Source: Branchiostoma floridae
Lineage: Eukaryota > Chordata > Leptocardii > Amphioxiformes > Branchiostomatidae
Assembly: GCF_000003815.2 (NCBI RefSeq)
Contig: NC_049984.1
Coordinates: 16,996,495-17,060,494, forward strand
Direction of reading: 5' to 3'
Length of the DNA: 64,000 bases
The position numbers were made by a program, and so were the translations under genes. The notes beneath the pieces were generated by a model. That model had not been told where the DNA came from and did no database searches. It saw only the letters and a program-made list of their open reading frames with translations. Each line of letters begins with the position of its first letter. Position 1 is the stretch's first letter. Below are positions 3,601-63,725 of this stretch, in pieces.

Positions 3601-6600
3601 AATCTTACTACCATTGCCAGTATCTATCTATACACATAAATGTTAAGTTTTGATGGAACTTTAAAACATACCTGGAGTTCAACTTGGAGGCATTTGCTTC
3701 ATATATACATCATTGACAAAAGATTCTAGAGGTTCAACTCACCTTTAGCATGGTCCTTGTCCAGCTGGGTAGCATCCTTCTTCCAGTCCTCCATTCTGTC
3801 CTGGAGAGGTGTCACCAGCTTCTCTAGTATGGCACTGGAACAGTGGTACAACCATGGAACGTTTAGACCACTGTATCAGTGGTACAACATGGTACAACCA
3901 AGTCACTTTTAGACCACTGTAACATTGGCACAACCACGGAACGTTTAGACCACTGTAACAGCAGTACAACCATGGAACGTTCAAACCATTGTAACAGTGG
4001 TACAATCATCGAACATTAAGATCACTATAAGTTGTACAACCACAGAACGTTTAGGTATAGACCACTCATACACATGTAAAATGTTTATGAGTACGAAGGA
4101 CCATTGGGTCAAAACGTATTTTAGCGAAGGAGCTGTGAGCTCACAGCTAAGGGGCTGTGTGCTCGGCGAACGAGCTGTGTGCTCACAGCGAAAGGGCTGT
4201 GTGCTCGGCGAAGGAGCTCCGCAGTGTGCTCAGGCCTCACAGCGAAGGGGCTGTAACACCAGGCTGAAGCTGGCCGCCAATTGGTAGCCGCCGATCCAGT
4301 CGCCGATTCGTCATTACACAAAATATAGCATCCCATTCAAAATTCCTAATTTCCTTTAAAAGCTTAAATGGACATCAAGAACTCTATTACCACCCAATTA
4401 TTATACTATGTATAAACATAGATAATAACAGAAAGTATTATATCAACGATTAAGCACAAATAATAGACCCAATTGGGCGGCCAACTTCAGCCTGGTCTAA
4501 AATCAGGCTTACGGCTTGTAGAGCAATCTGCTACTTATCGTGGCCCGTGGCGTGGATGTTAAGACGAATTTAGATAGCGCATACCCTAACGTATTCAAAA
4601 CAAATATCAAATCTTACGGGCCGAATTTAATTAATGAACTAGAGGGGAATTAACTAATAAACAAAGGGGACGCTAAAATACGCTGCCATACGGCTTGAAG
4701 AGCAATTTGCTACTATATAAACGTGGTCCGTGAACTTTCAAGACGAATTTAGATAGCTTATACCCCAACGTTTTCAATACAAGTATCAAATCTTACGGGC
4801 CGGATTTAATTGATGAACTAGAAGGGAGCTAATTGAGTTGAATCAGTTTGGTCTATAAGAAATCGGCACTGAGCTCTAGTTCATTTAGTATATAAGGTTT
4901 AAGTGCCTCTTAAATGTTAACGGGTCACGTTTAGATACGTAGTAGATTGCCCTACAAGCCGTTTGCATTTGGCAGCCGATTTTAACCCCCCTTTGCTTGG
5001 GTATTTCCTATTAGTTAATTCCCCTCTAGTTCATTAATTAAATCCGACCCGTAAGATTTGATACCCTTTTTTGAATACGTTAGGGTTTGCTAAAATCTAA
5101 ATTCGTCTCAAATTCACGGGCCACGTTTAGATAAGTAGCAGATTGCTCTACAAGCCGTATGGCAGCCGATTTTAGACCAGGCTGAAGTTGGCCGCCGATT
5201 GGGCCTATTATTTGTCCTTAATCGTTGATATAATACTTTTTGTTATCATTTATGTTTATACATACATATATTGGGTGGTAATAGACAATATCCAGCAGTT
5301 CTTGATGTCCATTTAAGCTTTTAAAGGATATTAGGAATTTTTAGTTTCTTCGGATGGGCGTCTGAATGATGCTATGTTTTGTCTAATGACGAATCGGCGG
5401 CTGGATCGGCGGCTACCAATCAGCGGCAAACTTCAGCCTGGTGCACAACCTCCTTCGCCGAGCATGCAGCCCCTTTGCTGTGAGCAGCACACAGCTCTTT
5501 CGCCGAGCACGCAGCCCCTTTGCTGTGAGCGCAGAGCTCCTTCGCCGAGCACGCAGCCCCTTTGCTGTGAGCGCACAGCTCTTTCGCTGTGAGCACACAT
5601 GTACTTTGCCGAGCACACAGCCCTTTTGCTGTGAGCACACAGCTAGTTCGCCGAGCACGCAGCCCATTCGCTGTGAGCACACAGCTCGTTCGCCGAGCAC
5701 GCAGCCCCTTAGCTGTGAGCACACAGCCCCTTAGCTGTGAGCACACAGCTCCTTCGCTAAACACGTTTTGACCCAATGGTCCTTCGTATATGAGGGAATT
5801 AAAGATTTCATACCAAGGTCAATGTTAGCTTTCCTCCCAATACTGTTTCTTAATTTCTTTTGTTCAAGAGATACACAGAAATAGTACTGACAACAAAATC
5901 TATATTTGCCTACTGCAATATTGACTACCGCCTGGTCCAAAACACTGTAAGTACAGTAATGCCCTAAGAGATATTGATCATCGATACCCTTCCAGGCCAT
6001 ACACGGTCCTCAATATTTATAAAGGATAGTTACATGGTCACTTGGTGCTCAATAGATGAAGCCTGCTTTCATTAAAGGTAATCCATAGACCGCAAGTCTG
6101 ATAGCATTTACCACTTCTGGTACCCTTGGCTAGTACTGTCAGACTCTCAGTCTGGCCTAGTCTGTGATTTGGTTTGATCACATCGTACTAACAGCAAAAA
6201 TTGTAACAACTTGGTAGCTTTCTATTTTGTACACCAATGGCATAAGAAATATGGCCAGTATAATTATGGTAATCTCCAAGCAGCTATTGGATTAGAAAAT
6301 CGAAACACTTTCTGATCGCCCAGGATTTACTATCAGGAAAGCCTGACAGATGGCTAGCGTTACAGTTTTCCACCCCAACATCTGCTTGGAGGTTAGGTGA
6401 ATCGTACCTTGAAAAATGTCTGAGCTTGCCCTCTATACTTCTGTGGCGGATACACATTCTGGTCAGGGCTGCACCCAGCTCCTTGGTGGCTCCTGAGAAA
6501 CACAAGAAAAGGCAAAATCTTGGTCAATCTCCTGGTACTTTCAATGATGTAAGATTTGTCATTTCACAGAACAATAGATTTGAAGACAGGGACAAGTACC

Positions 6601-12600: not shown

Positions 12601-15600
12601 CACACTGTATGATCTGGGGACATTGGTACACAGATCCTGAGATATTTTACTGGTTGCTTAGCAGTATAATCACCTATGGGACTCCTGCCCTACTTTCCAA
12701 CTTGTAATATGTAGTTAGGGCGAACGTAATGTTGCCATGTTCAACATGTCCAAAAGGTTATCAAAGCAAGACATCAGAAGAAATAGTACCCCTTTTATAA
12801 ACATTTATGCTATGTTTTTATTAGACTCTCTCCTTCATGGAAAGTCTGTGCCAGAAAATGTCTTCGAGGACATTATCTTTGCAGACTGTGTGCTACCCTG
12901 CTATCTAATCAACATTACTGAGATGGCACGGACCATTGACCAACAGTAAAAGGTAATTTCACAGGCAGAAGTGGTGATTCCAGTGGGGAAAGTCTGGGAC
13001 ATTAATACAGGTGAAACAGCCCTCAGGCCATTCCAACAGACTTTTTTGCATATTGGAATTCTGTCACAAAAAATCCCTAGTGTAAAGGATCAACATATAC
13101 CTACATGTTGAATACAAATGCACACTTTGAATTGCAAACATGTTTCCATTACAAATCCTATCATTACTATGGCCATCACTTGCTAGCAAGCTTCATGAAA
13201 TTTTCTGGCTTCTTTTCAATCTGTTTTCTGCTCATTAAAAAGCTTTAAAATGAGTTTCTGCATTACATGATGCTATCAGTATCAAACAGCCAAAGATGGC
13301 CGTAGATGCAGACATCTTAAAATTGAGCTTTCAAGACTACAAAGTCAAACCACTTGACTCCCTATACCCACAAGAAGAATTGTTAGCACTAAATTGACTT
13401 CAACGATATTGCTACTTGGCTGTACTTGATTTCCCTGCAGGCAACAATCAGGATAAAGATCGCCATGTAGACTACACTGTAATACTGCTTTGGTGAGAAA
13501 TTTGGTGATAACACATGACATCTGGCTCAAGTCAGCACTCAGATACAGACTCTACTGGGGCCCTACATTTAGAGATGATCATGAGACAAGCTAAAAGATA
13601 AGGATATTTTTTTACGACATTGGGAAAAAAGCTTAATCTGGTCGTTATTATGTTCATTGTGGGTTGTAAAGAAAATAATACCAAAAATTAATAATATTGG
13701 CTCTTCAAAAATGACCGGTTTCCAATATTGGCTGAAAGCCCATTACTATTTCCCTCTGAGTTTTACCACCATCTACTCTATAAGTGATGAGATGTGTTCA
13801 TATAAGGCTATCAGCACAGAGCAGCAGCCTCAGCTCAATTCATTACACTGTACTGCAGCAGATATAGGTGTATATGTAGGTCAGGACTCTGGCTGGAGAT
13901 ACAAGGTAAAGCTTATGTCATGAATTATGCACATAGGCACTGATAGGGAGCTGTACATCCTATCTACACATCTTCAGGGCTGAAACTAAACCTTCATTGC
14001 TGTTAAAGAGCATAATATCTGCTTTTTGTCGACTTGAAATACATTATTTCTGTTTTATGTATGAATGTATTTCTTTTTTCTGCTAAACAAAGTCTGTTTC
14101 CAAACTGTAAGATATTAATTTCTTTTCTGCAATCTATCTCAATGATTTTTCTCCAAACTGACCTGGTTGTGGATGGGTATTTCGAGCATATAGCCGCGCT
14201 GTCTGAAAGGGCCTTTAATATTCACAGCAGCCAGGCCGTATATGAGAATAGAGCAATAAACGTCAAATTTATGTGAACCCTGAAATGAAATATTGAATAT
14301 TCAAGGGAGCAGAAAATGTTGATGGCCCATATTCTAAATTACCTTTTGACCTCAGGTCATATCCGGCGGGACAGTACCTATAGCCTGGGCTGTTCCTCTC
14401 TATAAAGGGACAGTCAATGTCATTGTAAAGCATTGGGTGACGATCCATGAGGTGTAAAATTTGGCAAAATTTTGGTTGAATGTTTTCTTTATGGGTAAGG
14501 TTTATCGTAAAATCAAGAGGATAAATTGGATCATTATCATGCAGGCAAATTATGACATCTTTACCTTATACATAATTCACCTTAAAATCACCTTTCTATA
14601 GCCATACTGGTAGTAATGCAAAATACTTCTAATTCTTGCAGAGCAAGTCTACAAAGACAAGACTGTTATAGCAAACATGTCATTAAGGTTACCAGGGCTA
14701 TTCTCTAGTAGTCATCAAATGCAAGTATTCAACATCTCTCCACTTTCCATCTTGACCTTTCCATTTCAAAGTGGGTCGACCTTTCCAGATGACCCAGCAT
14801 TGCCCGGTGACCCTCCTGGCATTATCCCAACCCACCTCTGTAATTTTCTCTTGGATATGTCTGGCTAAGTCAAACATCAAACATTATGTAATCTGACTAT
14901 AAGGGCTTTCTAAAACTGACTGTTGCAAATGTTTTATGCAATACTTAAGGCTACAATTTCATGAGAATATTTTGTCTCTAAAATCACTTAAAGATATTAA
15001 CATGCACGCAATCTATTGGAGCAAATATGATAGCATCATTTTTCTGTTCAATAGGCCAATACATATTATACTGTAATTTCAATCAATCAATTGCAAATTC
15101 TATGCAGTTAAGCTTCCAAGCGTGGGAAAATGAATGGAGGTGGCTTCTGTAAGTTTGATTTTTTGCCAAACCATGCACACATACTGTGATACAAATGTAC
15201 TTCAAAAACTGGTAGTGAAGCTTCTTTCATATGCTGTCAAGCACATGTTAGAAATGACTTTTCCATTTCTATGTGACTTTCCTAGTTGAAACTTGACTGA
15301 TTGTTCATGATAGAAACATCTGGTTCTGGCCACATACATCAGTTGAAACCCTCTTTCAGTGCACCACAGTCTTGTAGGCTCTTGTTGCTGTTCTAAAGGT
15401 CTATGACGTCTGCCAGCTTGTCACCATGGAAACCACAGCTCTTATGCCATATCTAGAGCCCAGCTTGCGTCACAAGCCATAGCAACAGCATTCCATTACA
15501 TTCCATACTTCCCTAGGGCTGCAATTTCTCACCATAAAGTAAGGGGCAAACCAGGAAATAAAGTGTGTGTGTCTGTCTGTGTGTGCGTGTGCATGAACAA

Positions 15601-43838: not shown

Positions 43839-44036
43839 ATGTCTCAGAATGCCGGGGTGGGGACAGGATACCGAGAGGGGACGGCATCGTACTCAACCGT
43901 CACGACCGAAGCGGACCAGGACAGCCCGTACTCGCCCACCACCACCACGCTGACGACTACTCAGTCCGGCTGGGGGCTCACGTGCGACCTGAGCTACTGC
44001 AGGACCTTCCCAGGGATCACCAAGATTGTGCAGATG
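43839..44036 (+). CDS. CMTM-like exon 1 (coding part)
   Basis: The ATG at 43839 has G at -3. The exon encodes residues 1-66: a Ser/Thr/Tyr-rich tail with a run of Thr at 34-41, then the start of the MARVEL domain. It ends CAGATG followed by donor GTGAGA at 44037. The frame stays open upstream to about 43713 but without an ATG. Confidence 0.92.
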
Positions 44037-50000: not shown

Positions 50001-53000
50001 CATTGTTACATCCATGAAGATGGAGGTATTGTTTTGGGGGTACTGTTTCTGGTCCATATGATATTTCAAGAACCTTGTAATGGATGCGCCGGATTTTGGT
50101 AGGTGGGTAGATAGGGATATATTGTTGGTTTATGTTAAATTTAGGCCTCCTGTTGGTAGACCTTGGTACTGCAGCATTTTTTTGGTGGGAGACATGAAGT
50201 CTCCAAGCAGATGTGAGGAGGAAAGATTATAACATTTTCTTTTCAGTTTTCAACTGTCAGCATTTTAAATTGAGGAGCTGAATGCCATAAAAAGTTTTGA
50301 AATACAGTCTGCTCAAAGAATAGCCCAGAAAGAAGGCCTTGCACTTGAACTAACTTTTGTATCACCTTTGGTGTCACATGGCCTTTACCACTTGACTTTT
50401 CATGGTGTTTTTACGTTTACACGCTTTTCCTTTTTGCCTTACCAACTAAGATTCTTGTATTCCATGTCAATGTTGTTTCAGTATAAATATATTGCTACAT
50501 GCTGCGGCCTTTGCAAAGAATGTTATGTTTTTGGAAGTATTTGTGTGTGTGTGTTTGTGTGTGTGTGTGCGCATGTGTGTGTTTGTGCGTGCATGCGTGC
50601 GTATGTGTGTCAACACAATAACTCAAGAATGCTGGATAAATTGTCTTGATATTTGGTGTGTGGGTACGTAATAATGATACTGTACAGATGTCAAATTATA
50701 GAGTAGATAATAAGATGTTAAAATAATAAGATGTTGTCCACCCTAGTGGCTTGTTCTATAGTGTAGATGTTGTACAGGTCTACAGTATTGTCTTGATATT
50801 TGGTATGTGGGTATGTAATAATGAGACGGTACAGATGTTAAATCATAGATAGAGAATATGTTGTTGTCCACCCTAGTGGCTTGTTATATAGTATAGATGT
50901 AGTACAGGTCTACAGTATAATTTTGTTATCTCCCAACAGCTTGAAGCCGTTCTTGTCTGTGTTAACCTGACCTGGGCTGTTGATACAAGAAACTCTAATG
51001 GTTTGGCTCAAGTCCAACACCCCGACATAAGGAGGTCATTGTTGTTCCACTGTCAACTGTACCTTTGTGCAGGTGTCAGTTGTCCTGTTCAACACCTAGC
51101 CAACAATGGCAGCCATGTGCCCTTAGATTGTTTACCTTTAGGACTTTAAAGTTGTGTACTTTTTTCCCACAATGTTCGCTGAACATGACAAAAGTTGTCA
51201 GAAAGTCTGAAAGAAATCAATTGCTTTCAAACTAATGCATCATTAGTTGGGAAGGGCATATACATGTAGCATTATACATCATAGAACACTGTTGCAAAGA
51301 TGCCAAGATTTGAAAGCCTGATAAAAACCCAGCTGGAACTGAACCTCTGCTTGTAGATGATGCAAACATAAAGGGACAGGTACAGTTCAGGTCCAGAGGA
51401 TCAGGTCTGGCCTGATCTGAACCTGGACCTGATTGCCTGTGAAAAGTTGTGAATGGGTGATAGTGAAAACAGTGGTCCATTTTGCTACAAAGGAATCTGT
51501 TTGCATCACAACTACTAGTAATATAGTCCATGTTTGACTGTAGAAACTTGGTAAAAAAAGAATATTGACTCTCCTCTACTTTGCTCTTGTTGCTTCTTGG
51601 CCCGGTAAACCCCCAAACACCTGAACGCCTGCCGGTATAATCTGATAATTTTCTATCCGGTCCAAAATTCGGTCCACTGATTTTTTTCAGGTCCAGTTTT
51701 TCCGGATCAGTCCTACTAGAAAAAAAACGGTTTTGTAACGGTACCCTCCGCTAATCCCCACCAAATGAAGTCATTGTACACTGTAACGCTGTTGCCAACA
51801 GGATTCTCAGTGCCACAGTGTGTCCGAGATGTGGCCAGAGAGTCACCTCTGAATACAGATGGAAGACTTCCCTGTCAGGCAGATCAATATGTGACCAGAA
51901 ATGAATGAGATTAGGCTGCCCCCATTTCTGTAATGGGCTAATGTGGAATATGTCTCGTCTGGCACGCTGCCCCACGGCTATTCCATTTAGCGGGGAAATG
52001 GAATTGTCACTGTAAAATCTCACTGTTTGACCCAACAAACAGCAAATTATCACATTCTGGCTGTTCTTATACAAATAGCCTTGTTAGGAGAATGGATCTT
52101 AGTATACTTGAGGAAGTAAGGCAAAACATGTGTAAAGTCACATTTTTGTGGGTTTGAAAGCTTTAATTCAAATTGTCAAACTCTGCTTGCTTCTTCTTCG
52201 TAGGGCTTCATGATCAGTCTATTGTCATTCCTTTGATGAAACTTGAAATCCACAAACATTTTAATGGATGAAGTCTAATAGAACAGTGGGCAACATGCCA
52301 GGCTAGACATATAGCTGGAAGACTGGAACAATTCTTACCAACTCTGTGCTGATGAATTTATCAAAGTAAATGAGTATGTAAAAAGCTAAAACCTTCAGAC
52401 CAAGGGGAAATTTGCAAGGGATTCTCTCCCTCTCTTTGAGTTTTGTCAGTTAATTGCGTTCTGTATATCTATCATAACTGTACGTGATAAGCCAATAAGT
52501 TATAGACATGCTAACCAATAACTTACAGTTACATGTATATGTCATGGTCATATGTCATGGTAAGACATTGCATTTTCTGATTGAAAGTAGGAAAGAATAT
52601 TGAAATCATTTTCCTTTTTTTCTGTCCATTGCTTCGGGTATGAATTGAATCAAATGATTGAAAACTTCTCATAATAAATTATATACATCATTCTTCTTTT
52701 TTCTTCACAGGTACTAGCCCTTGTAGCGTTCATAGTTGCGGAGGCGGCGAGTTGCAGTTTCGGGTGTGGTCAGGGCGCCTTCAGGTTCTTCGAGTTTGTC
52801 ACCATCACCTCCTTCCTGGTGGTTCTTGTCATTTTCCTCTGCATGGCCACCACGGCCTACCAAAAAGTCACCATAGTCCACTGGCCCCTCACAGTAAGTA
52901 GTGGCTATATTATAACTTTTGCTCATGACTAGAAGTTTTTCTTCTCTCACCGTAGATTCCTCTGGGGATTAAATTTCACAGTAGAAGAATAGATGGAATG

Positions 53001-56000
53001 TTTGCGATAGTTTAAAGTTTGTGAATCAAACAAGGGAGTAGGCAGGTAGAAGACGGTGGCTTAAGTTTGCAGTGAAGAGCTTACTGCAAAAACTGCAAAA
53101 AATTAAGCCACGGTGAAAATTTAGTAATTACTGTATATGACAAAACTGCTTTATAACAACCACAGAAATGTCAACATTTACAGTGCATTGCATTGGCAAA
53201 ACCACTTTAAGATATATGGATAACATCATTATGGAAAATGATGAATAATGATTTGCCAAAAAGCAGTTACTCAAGCAATTGGATATGATTTTGGAAAAGG
53301 TAATGCTTTTTTAGACAGCCATCTGGTGTCTTTCGTCAGTGATACTGGAGAAATCTTGTTGGAGAGAGTTTTTATATATCCTTGCTGTCTGACCATTTCC
53401 AGAATCAAATCCAGTTGCTTGTCAATGAGTAACTGCATTTTGCCACATCTTATTACCTGGATGTCTAGCCTTCATTGACAAGATTTAATGATTATTTTTA
53501 CGTTTCCAAGGCTTCCCCCCAGAAAAGCAACTATTGTTATTCTACAAGCAGAGGTTTCGGTCTGGGGGCTAGTAGTGGCAGGTATGGAGCCAGCCGCTAA
53601 TAGTCCCCCAACCAGATCCCTACTTGAAGATTATCTGTTGTTAAATGATGCCAATGCTGTTTGGGAGTGTTCATGCACGTACTGAATATCTTATCTCATA
53701 TTCCTGTACCTGGGCTATTAGTATGCATCTGAGGAGTTATATAACTGAACAGAGTGCCCCTCTATCGTCTCATCTTTCCATTTCACACATACCTGCTGAG
53801 TAAAAAGCCAAAGGCTGGACCCATTTGATGAATCTGAAATTACACGCACGAGAAGATTTCCCGGAATGTCCTTTCTGTTGCCCGTAGGACATAATAAATT
53901 TTACTTTCAGAATCTCCTGTATCTTTATTTCCTTAGGAGGGGAAGTTATCACGTCTGAGGAGGGGAAGTTATAAGGAGATTCCTAAAAATAAAAATGTCT
54001 TTTATATCAGGAATTGCATTATCAAATGTCGTAATCTTTGTGACAATATAGCAGAACAAATTTTATGTTTGTTTGATAGCAGAACAGAGACCCGTGTTCA
54101 CTTTCGCATCAACTTCAAAGTGATTATCATTGCCTGAAGTTTTGCAAGTAGTGAGCTGAAGCATTTTGTATTTCAGGTTGAGTGCTTGTCAGAATTTTTA
54201 CTTTTGATCTTGTATCACTGAAGTTAAAGGTTGCTGTAAATGTGTAATGTATCAAGTGTTGCCATCTTCTCCCTGGAGCTGAGAGATTATATGTTTTACA
54301 TTCTGGCATATTTGTGAAAAAAAGTTGGCACAGGAATCTTCCTACAATCTCCTCCCCTTCGATCTTTCCTGTTGTACATCTCACATAGGTTTTTGTATAA
54401 TATACTGGTAAATGCATTTTAAGTTTGGCAGTGTTTATAAGTTTGCAGTTTTTGCAGTGCCTTATGCACCGCAAACTCAAAACCACAAAAATTTTTGTTC
54501 TGTCTTCTGCCGCCTATTCCCTTGTCTCTATGCGCCAACCCAATAGCAGTGTAATCAAATAATGGATACTACAATACTATGCTACACGTTTATGCTATAC
54601 ATTGTACAGCACTATGATGTGTTGTAGGATGATATCTGTCGCACCATGTCCGAGTTACTAGTAAAAGGTTTCCGGCTGGCTGTCCGTCAAGGCGCCAGTG
54701 TTTCCATTGCTATAGCAGCTTGAGATTCATCGCTAGTGTGAACTTAATGAACACTCTATTTCGTCCTTTACCATGAAATGTAATCACCACAAACTTTAAT
54801 GCATTTAGAGTACAAGGATGTGCATGTTATCACTACAGCCATCTTGTTACAGGCACTGATCACATGTTTAAAGTGTGTGCTGGCATATCTGTAGTAAAAA
54901 AGACAATATGAACTGGTGACAATCAATGCTGCAAGGAGCTCATCACATAAATAGTGTGTGCGCTAGCATATCTGTAGTAAAATAACAGAAGCGTTGCCAG
55001 TAATCAGTACTACCATCTTGTTTCAGGAGCTGATCACATGTATAGTGTGTGGGCTGGCGTATCTGTAGTAAAGTAACTGAAGAATTGCCTATAATCAGTT
55101 CTACCATCTTGTTTCAGGGGCTGATCACATGTATAGTTAGGGCTCAAAATACCACCTGCATATGCAGGTTAGTGCAGGTAAAATTGGAGCTGTGCAGGTA
55201 TTTCTGGTGTCTACCTGCACCTAACCTGCACTGGTCCATGTACTGGGTTTTATACATAAATGTCATATGATGTAGGTGTATGTGGATTATTATCAGCTGC
55301 ATTGACTGTTACCACCTATAAAGTATAGAAGAAAAAAAAAGCAAAGGTTCCTGAACAATTTTAGTATGATCCATCCGGGCTCGAAATACACTTTTCAGTC
55401 AACTTGCACCTGTGCAAGTTAAGCCAAAGGTAACTTGCACCAAAAGAAACTTACTTGCACAACCCAAAATAGTGAACTGTTAACCCCTTATCTCCTCTTC
55501 TGAAAATTTGCAAATGTACGTGAGTAAATGGGGATACATAAAGACCACATGTTTGGATATTTGTTTTTCCGTAGCGTATTTTATTTTTGGTTTGAAATTG
55601 TACAAACTGTTTCATAAAAACTGTGAATTTAGGCTCAATTAAAGACAATTCAATGTCTACAACTCGATAAGATCCATAGATTTCTTCTGGACTCTTCGAG
55701 TGACATCCATCACAGTAACTATTCTTAAGCATCTCCAGAATGAAGTGGTAGAACAACTCAATACAATACATATAACTGGAAAAACCAGTCACTAATTAGT
55801 ATGCAAATGTAACTCATATGCAAATCAAGGTAAGACAGCACCATAGGAATCATTTATTGTAGAGATGGATTTGTTTTAAAAAATAGTTTACCTGGATGTC
55901 TAACCAAATTTACAAATAACAAATTTAGGCTTTTATTTATTCAGTGTTATTTTCTTTTACCTTTCAATGACAGACAATATTCTTGGTGTGTGTAAGCTTT

Positions 56001-58688
56001 TTCTAATGTCAGGTATTAGAGGACAAAAGTAACTTGCACTGGTGCAAGTTTGGTCTAAACTTACTTGCACCACACCAATTTTACTTGCACAAACTTGCAT
56101 ATGCATGTGGTATTTCGAGCCCTGTCCATACTCCATAAATTCAGAGTGGTGCAGGTAAAATTTGTCTGGTGCAGGTAATTTTCAGTGTTACCTGCACCAG
56201 TGCAGGTATGCAGGAAAAAAGTATTTCGAGCCCTGATAGTGTGTGTGCTGGCATATCTGTAGTGAAATAACGAAGAACTGCCTATAATCAGTGCTACCAT
56301 CTTGTTGCAGGAGCTGATCACATGTATAGTGTGTGTGCTGGCGTATCTGATTGCCTCCAGTGTTCTAGCAGCTAATGTTAATGACGGGGCGGGCGGTGGT
56401 GCAGTGGTGAGTATCGTCTCAAGACAGACCTGATAAGTCTGTTTGCCAGAGTACCATATGTTTTTTTATGTGAGATAGAGTACCTGTGTTGTCTGAGACA
56501 TGTCATGCGAAAAACAAAACAAGCGACTAGGTTTCCTAAGACAATACCACTTGTTCCCGACATCAAAAAGTATCTGCCATAAAAATAGAAGGCCCGGGTC
56601 AAAAGATACAGGAAATGGAAGTTCTGCTGCAGTACCAAGGTAGCTACCAGGGGACCCAAAATTAACTTTGACCTCCGTCTTACCAGGACCCACCCACATC
56701 ATCACAGTCCATCAAGTGGTTAAGTTGTTGCTGACTACAAATGTGAAGAAACATACAGACAGACAGATGCACACACAACACAGACACACCCAAACAATAC
56801 CTCCTGTTTTCATTGAGGTAAAAATCACAGCAGCTGTGTATGCATATATTACAACATGGTCAGTACAAAAATGAAGCAAAACATAATGGTTATTTCTCTT
56901 ATTCAAGCTGTCCTTTTAAAAAATGAAACGACAATGAAATGTGCACAGTTTGTCTTGTTTCTGCACATGTTTCTGCACATTTGTGCTCGGCAATAATCGG
57001 TTATGCAGACAATCAGAGCAGACTGACCTGCCCAGAAATACAGGTCACGTTACAGAAGACCTGCCTGTGGAATATCAATGTGTTTCAACAATCAATAGCA
57101 GGTGAACAGTATGCAGCATACGAAATGAAATCTGAAAAGTGCAATGGCGATTTTTCTGTTCATTTCATGACTTTTTTGTCTCTGTCCCAAGATTATCCAG
57201 AATTAGTATTTAAGCCGGTAAAGGTTCAGAGGTTTCAGTCAGTGGCAGATAAAAAGTTAGACTAAAAATTGCTGCCTCTATTTCACTGTGGTAATCCATT
57301 ATATCTACTTCTACATGTATTACAAATCAGAACTATCTACTACCCCAGAATCATGAGCATAGCATGTCTGGAACACGAGATCAAAACTGGTAGTCCTACT
57401 GCAGTACCAAGAAAAGCAGCTAGTTGGCCCAAAATGTTATTGTTCCATTTTGCCAGAACCTTCTAACATAACAAATATCACAAATATCCATCCATGACTT
57501 GCTGTTCACAAACACATGCAGATAGACAGACAGTCAATTACATGCACCCGAAAGCATATCCTTGATGGAGAAGGAAATTACAAATGTACAACTCCTTAGC
57601 AGTACATGTGTACTTGCTAAGGATGTATTTGCTGTAAAGGTTAACACTCATCCAGGGATGCAGGTTTTAAATGTTGAAAATACAACCAGATAACTGTACA
57701 TGTGTATTCCCATATTTTTCCTTCCATTCCCATCATGGAACACTGCTGGAGAATGAATACCCACAATTTTACCTCCATCCCATCCCATTCCACTCTGTTT
57801 CTATTTTCTGTGTACCAGAACTCTTCTTGCTAATGAATAGCTACAGAACAACTGCTACACTTTTCACTCCATGCTCACAGCACTTCCCATATCTAGAACT
57901 AACCATCTCTTGTACTTGACCACCATCATTTTCAACTCTGCCTGTCATTAGCTAAAAGCTTGAATTTGCTCAATACATATCTACAGTGAAGATTTCAATT
58001 TGTTTTGGTAGAAGCTGAAGAATATTTTCAAGCATTCTGTAACTAAAGCACCATGATATTCACAAGTCTTTCATTCCTTTTCACTGGTAGGAGTTTAGAG
58101 GTCAATGTCACTTTGAAAAATTGATCTGCCTTGGTACTCATGGTAACATGAGTCATTTTGGTTTCACATAGCGAAAGTGAATTTGGCTTTTGGATGATAT
58201 TCTGTGTGATATTTTGTGGAGATGAAGGGCCAGTCGTATATGAGGGAGGAAAACTTTTTTAGGGTAGGGCCAAGGAGAAATTTTTCGGGGTGGGGGTGGT
58301 GGGTGATGGGGGGTTGCAACAAAACATTTTTGGTTGCCTTCAACAATGTATTTCAAACTTGTGGCGCATTAGTTTTAGTGGATTACATCAGTAAAGTAAA
58401 AGTTTGCTAATTCAGTAATTTTTTACGGTCAGAATTGATGGGTGAAGATGTAGAAGGAGTGTGGAATTTTGTAAAGGTACATACATGTGAGACTAATCCC
58501 ACAAACTGTCATTATCATGTTCTTTCTCTTCCTCACAGGGCTTTGGTTTCTTGTCCCTGCTGGCGTTCGTGGCCGGAGGGTACTTTGCATTCCGTGAGTG
58601 GCAGGACGAGGCGAGGCCGCGCCTTCCCGTGAACAGGAGGGGGAACTACGTGCCGGCGGAGGAAAATGAAGAGAATGAAGACTTGTAA
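43839..58688 (+). CDS. CMTM-family MARVEL-domain four-pass membrane protein (four exons, complete)
   Basis: Four exons (198+183+96+150 nt, all introns phase 0) encode 208 residues. CMTM (CKLF-like MARVEL transmembrane) proteins are tetraspanning proteins of the plasma membrane and endosomes that act in membrane apposition, trafficking and receptor stabilisation. Seen here: a Ser/Thr-rich cytosolic N-tail (1-48); the family entry motif DLSYCRTFPGITKIVQM (50-66); TM1 about 62-80; a short Cys-containing loop (C81, C85); TM2 about 92-113 starting FFEFV; an H-W-P-L motif at 123-126; TM3 about 129-148; TM4 about 160-178; and an acidic C-tail ending E-N-E-E-N-E-D-L. The DLSY...RT, FFEF and WPL..EL pattern is closest to CMTM7, CMTM3 and CMTM4/6 as I know them; subgroup assignment needs a tree. 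The start is the first in-frame ATG, with purine at -3. Plasmolipin is a less likely alternative. Confidence 0.93.
44930..45140 (+). repeat. tRNA-derived SINE
   Basis: The start GTAGTGTGGCGTATCTGGCT resembles a Pol III A box region, and GTTCAAATCCC at 44975-44985 is a near-perfect B box. The body, with ACCCAGGTGTAAAGATGGGT followed by ACCTGACTTCGGTTAGGGAG, is of the kind seen in tRNA-derived SINEs of marine invertebrates, as I recall. Borders are approximate and no target duplication was fixed. Confidence 0.6.
45948..45977. repeat. (AGAGT)n microsatellite
   Basis: About five to six copies of AGAGT. Confidence 0.7.
46689..46696. promoter_or_regulatory. Perfect CRE palindrome TGACGTCA
   Basis: An 8-bp consensus CREB/ATF site within a local CpG-rich stretch of intron 1 (46640-47110). 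No start site is evident. Confidence 0.3.
47023..47106 (-). pseudogene. tRNA-like pseudogene, minus strand
   Basis: On the minus strand it has an A box TGGCCGAATGG (47099-47089) and a perfect B box GGTTCGATTCC (47043-47033), with a good T-arm (CCTGG / CCGGG). The total is 84 nt, but the acceptor ends (GCAAGCT and CGGGAAC) do not pair. The only anticodon-like loop (CTTTTTT, Lys-UUU type) has a broken stem. A decayed tRNA gene or SINE head is likelier than a working tRNA. Confidence 0.45.
47320..47620. repeat. Tandem duplication, about 157 bp
   Basis: CTATTATAAAACTGGATGCCG at 47333 recurs as CTATTATCAAAATGGATGCC at 47490. Both are followed by GCGTTGATAGGT, a CTCTGA.GTACA.CCGAGA block and TTTAGGCCAATCAAAAAGCT. 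Each copy carries a CCAATCA (CCAAT-box-like) motif. Divergence is about 20 percent by eye. Confidence 0.65.
48543..48642. other. Assembly gap, 100 N
   Basis: Exactly 100 N, a placeholder gap in CMTM-like intron 1. Confidence 0.95.
49165..49225. promoter_or_regulatory. Possible alternative promoter cluster in intron 1
   Basis: TTTTCCCGCC (49177-49186, E2F-like) overlaps CGCCATTT, whose reverse is AAATGGCGG (YY1-like). TTACGTCA (49216-49223, CRE-like) follows in a CpG-rich pocket. Such sets are common at promoters. No exon is identified on either strand. Confidence 0.3.
50198..50226. mobile_element. MITE end fragment (CTCCAAGCAG family)
   Basis: AGTCTCCAAGCAGATGTGAG matches the family's left end; no partner end was recognised. 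Confidence 0.35.
50535..50619. repeat. TG-rich microsatellite
   Basis: Alternating TGTGTG, TTTG, CGTGCA and CGTG. Open frames through it (runs of Cys and Val) are artefacts. Confidence 0.75.
50642..50925. repeat. Tandem duplication, about 140 bp, two units
   Basis: TGTCTTGATATTTGGTGTGTG at 50643 and TGTCTTGATATTTGGTATGTG at about 50789 start units that both end TTGTCCACCCTAGTGGCTTG, a TATAGT.TAGATGT.GTACAG segment and GTCTACAGTAT. The preceding AACTCAAGAATGCTGGATAA may belong to the same dispersed repeat. Confidence 0.65.
51369..51753. mobile_element. hAT-like MITE, decayed copy 3, inverted
   Basis: The reverse complement follows copy 1 in order: GGTACCGTTACAAAACCG, TCCGGAAAAACTGGACCTG, GGACCGGATAGAAAATTA, CAACAAGAGCAAAGTAGAG. 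Terminal repeats are degraded and no target duplication is left. Located in CMTM-like intron 1. Confidence 0.65.
52711..52893 (+). CDS. CMTM-like exon 2
   Basis: The acceptor is TTCTTCTTTTTTCTTCACAG and the donor is GTAAGT. The exon encodes residues 67-127: the rest of TM1, a Cys/Gly loop (CSFGCGQG) and TM2 (FFEFVTITSFLVVLVIFL), ending at VHWPLT. Phase is 0 on both sides. Confidence 0.94.
52954..53135. mobile_element. CpG-decayed MITE (TACTGTAAATG family)
   Basis: GGGGATTAAATTTCACAGTAG matches GGGGATTTAATTTCGCGGTAG of the intact copy at 62162. TTTGCAGTGAAGAGCTTACTGCAAAAACTG matches TTCGCGGTGAAGTGGTCACC followed by GCGAAAACCG there. The right end is TTACTGTA. Nearly all CpG sites have become TG or CA. 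Confidence 0.5.
54399..54560. mobile_element. CpG-decayed MITE (TACTGTAAATG family), inverted copy
   Basis: It starts TATACTGGTAAATGCATTTT. Its reverse complement contains CAAGGGAATAGGCGGCAGAAG and GAGTTTGCGGTGCATAAGGC, which line up with the copy at 52954. The far end is not fixed. Confidence 0.45.
55138..56235. mobile_element. Outer non-autonomous transposon in the exon-3 array, 5-bp target duplication
   Basis: The ends TAGGGCTCAAAATAC and, inverted, CAGGGCTCGAAATAC are flanked by ATAGT on both sides (55133-55137 and 56236-56240). The empty site can be reconstructed from sister array units (CATGTATAGTGTGTG). Subterminal repeats are of the type TGCAGGTAA / TTACCTGCA. It is interrupted by a related element at 55375. 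No transposase. Superfamily not assigned. Confidence 0.75.
55375..56124. mobile_element. Inner nested transposon, 750 bp, 5-bp target duplication
   Basis: The ends CCGGGCTCGAAATAC and, inverted, CAGGGCTCGAAATAC are flanked by TCCAT (55370-55374 and 56125-56129). They are nearly identical to the ends of the outer element. Subterminal motifs are ACTTGCACCTGTGCAAGTTA and variants. No transposase frame. Confidence 0.75.
56311..56406 (+). CDS. CMTM-like exon 3
   Basis: The acceptor CTTGTTGCAG precedes 56311 and the donor is GTGAGT at 56407. The exon encodes residues 128-159, that is TM3 (ITCIVCVLAYLIASSVLAA) and a Gly-rich loop (DGAGGGAV). It is the functional last unit of a tandem array whose upstream copies stop just after the A-Y-L codons. 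Confidence 0.92.
56600..56780. repeat. Dispersed repeat, copy A
   Basis: GCTGCAGTACCAAGGTAGCT, GACCCAAAATTAACTTTGAC and TTACCAGGACCC, ending in CAGACAGACAGATGCACAC. It shares this order with copy B at 57385. Possibly the 3' end of a retroelement; the family is not identified. Confidence 0.5.
57385..57540. repeat. Dispersed repeat, copy B
   Basis: ACTGCAGTACCAAGAAAAGC, TTGGCCCAAAATGTTATTGT and TTTGCCAGAACC, ending in GCAGATAGACAGACAG. Colinear with copy A. Confidence 0.5.
58287..58313 (+). other. Potential G-quadruplex
   Basis: Four G-runs (GGGG, GGGGG, GGG, GGGGGG) are separated by loops of one to four bases on the sense strand of intron 3, 226 bases before exon 4. This fits the G3+N1-7 rule. 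Confidence 0.45.
58539..58688 (+). CDS. CMTM-like exon 4, with stop codon
   Basis: The acceptor CTTTCTCTTCCTCACAG precedes 58539. The exon encodes residues 160-208: TM4 (GFGFLSLLAFVAGGYFAF), then an REWQDEARPR segment and an acidic tail. The stop is TAA at 58686-58688. Codons are GC-rich compared with the surrounding intron. Confidence 0.93.
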   Translation, partial: GFGFLSLLAFVAGGYFAFREWQDEARPRLPVNRRGNYVPAEENEENEDL

Positions 58689-62161: not shown

Positions 62162-62373
62162 TACTGTAAATGTATTAAAGTTCGCGGGGATTTAATTTCG
62201 CGGTAGCGGGAAAAGGCACTTTTCGTGGTGGATTTAAGTTCGCGGTAACACCATAGACTGCAATCTAATATCATGATAGAATAATATTTGCGGTGGTTTT
62301 AAATTCGCGGTGAAGTGGTCACCGCGAAAACCGCGAACATTAATCCACCGCGAACATTTCTGCATTTACAGTA
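62162..62373. mobile_element. MITE hairpin (TACTGTAAATG family), best-preserved copy
   Basis: Ends TACTGTAAATG and CATTTACAGTA are inverted; the inner arms repeat TTCGCGGT / ACCGCGAA motifs that can fold back. It is 212 bp with a TA-type target, as in Tc1/mariner-derived MITEs. It lies in the probable 3'UTR. CpGs are intact here, unlike the copies at 26717, 52954 and 54399, so it is probably the youngest. Confidence 0.65.
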
Positions 62374-63719: not shown

Positions 63720-63725
63720 AATAAA
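63720..63725 (+). terminator. AATAAA polyadenylation signal
   Basis: A canonical AATAAA is followed within 20-30 bases by a GT-rich stretch (GTTGTGTGACTTGT), the usual downstream element. Cleavage would fall near 63740. It is the best poly(A) site noticed on the plus strand downstream of the CMTM-like stop codon. Confidence 0.6.

Follow-up and report, generated by a model that had tools for sequence, protein, structure and literature searches.

The window analysed here, a stretch of 64,000 nucleotides, carries on its forward strand a gene with four coding exons, of which every junction is in phase 0 with GT/AG borders. The coding part of exon 1 (43839..44036, residues 1-66) ends at a GTGAGA donor and keeps the spliced frame open in phase 0, while exon 2 (52711..52893, residues 67-127, donor ACA/gtaagt) encodes most of the transmembrane segment TM1 and all of TM2. 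The true exon 3 (56311-56406), of 96 nt and phase 0, encodes TM3 and is followed by its donor at 56407, and exon 4 (58539..58688) provides, in the spliced frame, TM4, the C-terminal tail and the stop codon. The conceptual product has 208 residues with four hydrophobic segments, and its residues 53-172 match the Pfam MARVEL family PF01284 (E 7.5e-13, 49.1 bits against a gathering cut-off of 32.8). By this score, together with the four hydrophobic segments, the predicted product is a MARVEL-domain protein; a PDB sequence search with it returned no solved structure at E up to 1. Should the AATAAA recognised by eye at 63720 be the poly(A) signal, the presumed 3′ UTR of the gene would extend over about 5 kb, from 58689 to about 63730. 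Inside it, at about 62163-62372, a palindrome-like element was also noticed by eye, with TTCGCGG / CCGCGAA motifs between ACTGTAAATG and CATTTACAGT.

In the intron between exons 2 and 3, the acceptor of exon 3 is repeated together with the first 39 nt of the exon, giving five copies whose first exon bases lie at 54853, 54936, 55027, 55118 and 56311. The original prediction had announced these five copies and had placed the last intron bases at 54852, 54935, 55026, 55117 and 56310; the number and the positions were both correct, the units being 83-91 bp long. Units 1 to 5 measure 91, 83, 91, 91 and 90 bp when the insert in unit 4 is discounted; the value for unit 1 was set by us, as its left end is uncertain and by eye its homology is evident no further out than about 33 nt upstream of the acceptor. 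Units 2-5 all start with TAGTAAAAT-like sequence and end in ...TATCTG. Unit 1 (54801..54891) carries a decoy acceptor at 54852/54853 and 39 exonic bases, directly followed by TAG; unit 2 (54892..54974) is a decoy from which 10 nt of the pyrimidine tract are deleted; unit 3 (54975..55065) has an intact-looking decoy acceptor at 55026/55027. Unit 4 is in two parts, the left one (55066..55137) with 20 exonic bases behind a decoy acceptor at 55117/55118, the right one (56236..56259) with a second ATAGT and the last 19 exonic bases, and unit 5 (56260-56349, with the exon to 56406) continues through its exonic half into the true exon 3. All five units are on the plus strand. Tandem Repeats Finder reported 54934-55137 with a period of 91, 2.2 copies and a score of 310, and left units 1 and 5 outside the array. 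A 38-nt core searched with at most 3 mismatches matched copies 3 and 5 only, both exactly (0 in 100 shuffles), copies 1, 2 and 4 differing from it by more than 3 mismatches.

Unit 4 is an ordinary unit that is interrupted after ATGTATAGT by a transposon-like insert of 1,098 bp (55138..56235, no strand assigned), the termini of which, TAGGGCTCAAAATAC / CAGGGCTCGAAATAC, are inverted repeats. The insert is flanked by the direct repeat ATAGT (55133-55137 and 56236-56240). Nested within it is a related element of 750 bp (55375..56124, no strand assigned, positions counted by hand from the flanks) with termini near-identical to those of the outer insert and flanked by the direct repeat TCCAT (55370-55374 and 56125-56129). 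The 13-nt terminal core, allowing up to 2 mismatches, occurs at 5 sites in the window, where shuffles give a mean expectation of 0.66; four of the sites are the ends of the two elements and one, with 2 mismatches, lies at 14177. Such related inverted-repeat elements with 5-bp duplications would fit a family of cut-and-paste DNA transposons lacking a transposase of their own, and their termini may resemble those of hAT-like elements. None of five long ORFs of the window, picked by eye among 49, had a Pfam match at E up to 0.01, and this includes the one taken from the inner element; Rfam gave nothing at gathering score within the window, and a literature search for the repeat-element sequence, at the level of titles and the opening of abstracts, gave nothing related. 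Since the gap of 1.1 kb between copies 4 and 5 is an insert, the array is a plain minisatellite of five units, the last of which is the real exon start, and the single array span of 1.4 kb originally drawn has to be abandoned. GTGCAGGTAA- or ACTTGCAC-type repeated motifs are present near the ends of both nested elements. The same intron also holds a 39-nt inverted repeat (53061-53099 / 54442-54480) that is 79% complementary with arms 1,342 nt apart, possibly an old transposon.

The units are not equally related. Those on the exon side are 89-92% identical (units 3 and 4, 81/91; units 3 and 5, 81/90; units 4 and 5, 83/90), unit 1 shares 72-73% with units 3, 4 and 5, unit 2 shares 68-73% with the same three, and units 1 and 2 agree at 48/81 positions. 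Among units 3-5, with gapped columns dropped, 3/39 exonic columns are variable, as are 2/20 in the acceptor and 7/31 in the far intron. The exonic bases are thus less variable than the intronic ones (3/39 against 9/51), which would count against a neutral reading, though the difference is not significant (Fisher p 0.22). Neither this comparison nor that of the acceptor with the far intron (p 0.45) identifies a region of units 3-5 as significantly spared, in a small sample of low power. Within the 39 exonic nt, first, second and third codon positions all carry differences across the 10 unit pairs. The pattern of divergence is what neutral copies would be expected to show, and it has little power to tell otherwise.

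Reading the decoys in phase 0 gave stops at 54892 for copy 1, at 54948 (TAA) for copy 2 and at 55066 for copy 3, so that the claim that copies 1 and 3 stop right after the shared codons, and copy 2 earlier, was confirmed. Copies 1 and 3 stop straight after the 39 shared bases because in both cases the following unit starts with TAG. The two stops are therefore the same junction TAG and count as one event, not two, and we rejected the idea that copies 1 and 3 acquired them independently, as a sign of design. The products predicted from copies 1 and 3 break off within TM3, 13 residues into exon 3, which bears out the proposed truncation after TM2. According to the 50-55 nt rule, mRNAs made from copies 1 and 3 would be expected to undergo nonsense-mediated decay. 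Copy 4 in its present form reads through 50 open codons, into the transposon-like insert, before it reaches a stop at 55268.

Acceptors were scored with a simple log-odds matrix built on approximate frequencies and ranked among the 214 AG sites in 52950-56400. With this matrix, the acceptors of exons 2 and 4 scored 14.1 and 10.7 and the true acceptor of exon 3 only 4.0, while the decoys of units 4, 3, 1 and 2 scored 6.3, 4.3, 3.5 and -6.4. The corresponding ranks are 3rd for unit 4, 7th for unit 3, 10th for unit 5, 14th for unit 1 and 147th for unit 2. As the true site is weak, with two decoys equal to it or above and a third close, competition is possible; decoys 3 and 4, at or above the score of the true acceptor, might compete, and this would count against a neutral reading. 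The unit 2 decoy is by its score a very poor acceptor, its pyrimidine tract being short by 10 nt. The top AG site of the intron is an unrelated one at 52956 (score 8.4), and other unrelated AGs equal or beat the array acceptors, so the matrix alone is no predictor of use. From the decoys to the donor at 56407, exons of 1,289 nt (unit 4), 1,380 nt (unit 3) and 1,554 nt (unit 1) would result, compared with 96 nt for the true exon 3.

Minisatellites lying over exon-intron borders have been described in amphioxus under the name of “mirages”, in Adh3, BflGb6 and BflGb9 (PMC3087553), and a PGBD5 mirage with imperfect repeats of 60 and 108 bp has been reported together with a citation of a TnC mirage (PMC3902484). 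The present locus has the structure by which amphioxus mirages are defined: a tandem repeat spans the exon-intron border and duplicates its splice signal. In BflGb6, too, the unit combines the 3′ end of an intron with the 5′ part of an exon, there exon 2, and one haplotype has 6 units where another has 3 (PMC3087553). The unit of about 91 bp differs in size from those of BflGb6 (150-160 bp), BflGb9 (157 bp), Adh3 (10-72 bp) and PGBD5 (60 and 108 bp), and the outer units are more decayed than those of BflGb6, which are 81-100% identical (PMC3087553). A unit split by nested transposon-like inserts is another difference, as the accessible mirage descriptions of PMC3087553 and PMC3902484 make no mention of one. 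Copy-number instability was reported for BflGb6 and Adh3, and many mirage copies hold AG/GT signals that the authors consider usable as cryptic sites, although Adh3 data and globin RT-PCR suggested to them no interference with regular splicing (PMC3087553). Taking the cryptic-site remark together with the plausible acceptors of decoys 1, 3 and 4, occasional use of these decoys may be possible. The same authors proposed duplicated border sequence as a source of a new intron or exon (PMC3087553); in comparison with intron gain by internal tandem duplication, the copies here all sit inside one pre-existing intron, and no new one is in evidence.

A literature search that combined minisatellites with duplicated or tandem acceptors returned no report. 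Decoy exons in retained introns and poison exons are other systems in which non-productive intronic splice sites are able to compete with real ones. The present locus resembles them in carrying intronic sites that would be non-productive, whereas nothing in its sequence points to use, regulation, conservation or a paired conserved donor.

We consider it highly probable that the locus is a neutral, mirage-type minisatellite that nested transposon-like elements now interrupt. We infer that a segment of about 91 bp, roughly the last 52 bases of the intron with the first 39 bases of exon 3, was duplicated in tandem, so that copies of the acceptor came to lie in the intron. Copies 1 and 2, farthest from the exon, would then have decayed, while copies 3, 4 and 5 on the exon side may be younger or more recently homogenised. 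Later, a transposon-like element would have entered unit 4 and a related element would have entered that one. The decoy copies would mostly be removed by splicing as part of the intron. We propose that the true acceptor is preferred as it is the sole one at the usual exon length (96 nt) from the donor at 56407; exon definition would favour this real site, and the insert may have strengthened the preference, the decoy exons having presumably been about 1.1 kb shorter before the insertion. Leaky use of copies 1-3 would yield a protein truncated in TM3 from an mRNA that is probably decayed. As mirage repeats are known in lancelets with seemingly undisturbed splicing, the array, by analogy, most likely rides along as a passenger rather than serving as a regulatory switch.

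Of the two possibilities originally raised, a neutral minisatellite is thus the one that stood, in agreement with our data and with the published amphioxus mirages; for a built-in device, nothing was found that favours one. Such a maintained poison-exon or splice-competition device, in which the decoys would divert transcripts into frames stopping in TM3 and so lower the output of the gene, seems to us quite improbable. It would draw on the acceptor-like character of decoys 1, 3 and 4, which score close to the weak true site, and on the in-frame stops behind copies 1-3. Yet copy 2 is ruined, copies 1 and 3 owe their stops to a shared TAG that is a by-product of the unit boundary, copy 4 is open into a transposon-like insert that lies in the array itself, and no segment is significantly spared from change, at low power. 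Published mirages moreover splice normally according to their authors (PMC3087553, PMC3902484). The explanation to which we give the least credit is an assembly artefact made of collapsed or stacked haplotypes. Tandem repeats are frequently misassembled. One globin mirage locus was apparently aberrantly assembled in the draft genome (PMC3087553). In the present array, however, the divergence between units amounts to 8-41% and includes private indels, and one unit bears an insert with a direct repeat, an arrangement that a stacking error would not readily make.

A further possibility, which we regard as a long shot, is the birth of an exon, with acceptor 4 of the minisatellite and a donor of the insert defining a 60-nt cassette that would add 20 residues (GLITCIVRAQNTTCICRLVQ) before TM3. 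Several donor-like CAGGT motifs are found at the insert ends, with a terminal region of TGCAG/GTAA-type motifs, and the hypothetical exon (55118..55177, plus strand) would run from decoy acceptor 4 to the transposon donor CAG/GTAAAA at 55178. Its acceptor is the 3rd of 214 AG sites by the approximate matrix used above, and the donor yields a phase-0 exon of 60 nt without stops. As a background, we took the plus-strand AG sites of the window, excluding 54800-56450 and the window ends, and asked for an equal or better donor 30-300 nt further on: 452/3600 sites had one, and only 28/3600 (0.8%) gave a comparable open phase-0 exon. The same donor and open-frame test was passed by one of the three decoys 1, 3 and 4, decoys 1 and 3 failing it. 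Against this stand the modest strength of the donor at 55178, the use of approximate frequencies in the matrices, the post hoc discovery of the exon among 27 listed acceptor-donor pairs and the presence at 55168, 10 nt further upstream, of a donor with a higher score whose use would break the frame; these last two points make the 60-nt exon only a lead. If true, the minisatellite would have supplied the acceptor and the transposon the donor, a snapshot of the birth of a new alternative exon.

Taken alone, the locus is ordinary. If it is a lancelet locus, a MARVEL gene would join the mirage genes named in the accessible text of PMC3087553 and PMC3902484, and it would offer an example of a mirage interrupted by transposon-like elements. 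Loci of this kind are natural settings in which to ask how the spliceosome chooses among near-identical acceptors, and also whether a duplicated border gives rise to a new exon or intron. Elsewhere in the window, other minisatellites are found at 3833-4218 and at 5450-5758, the second being composed of units of about 42 bp of the CTGTGAGCACACAGC type.
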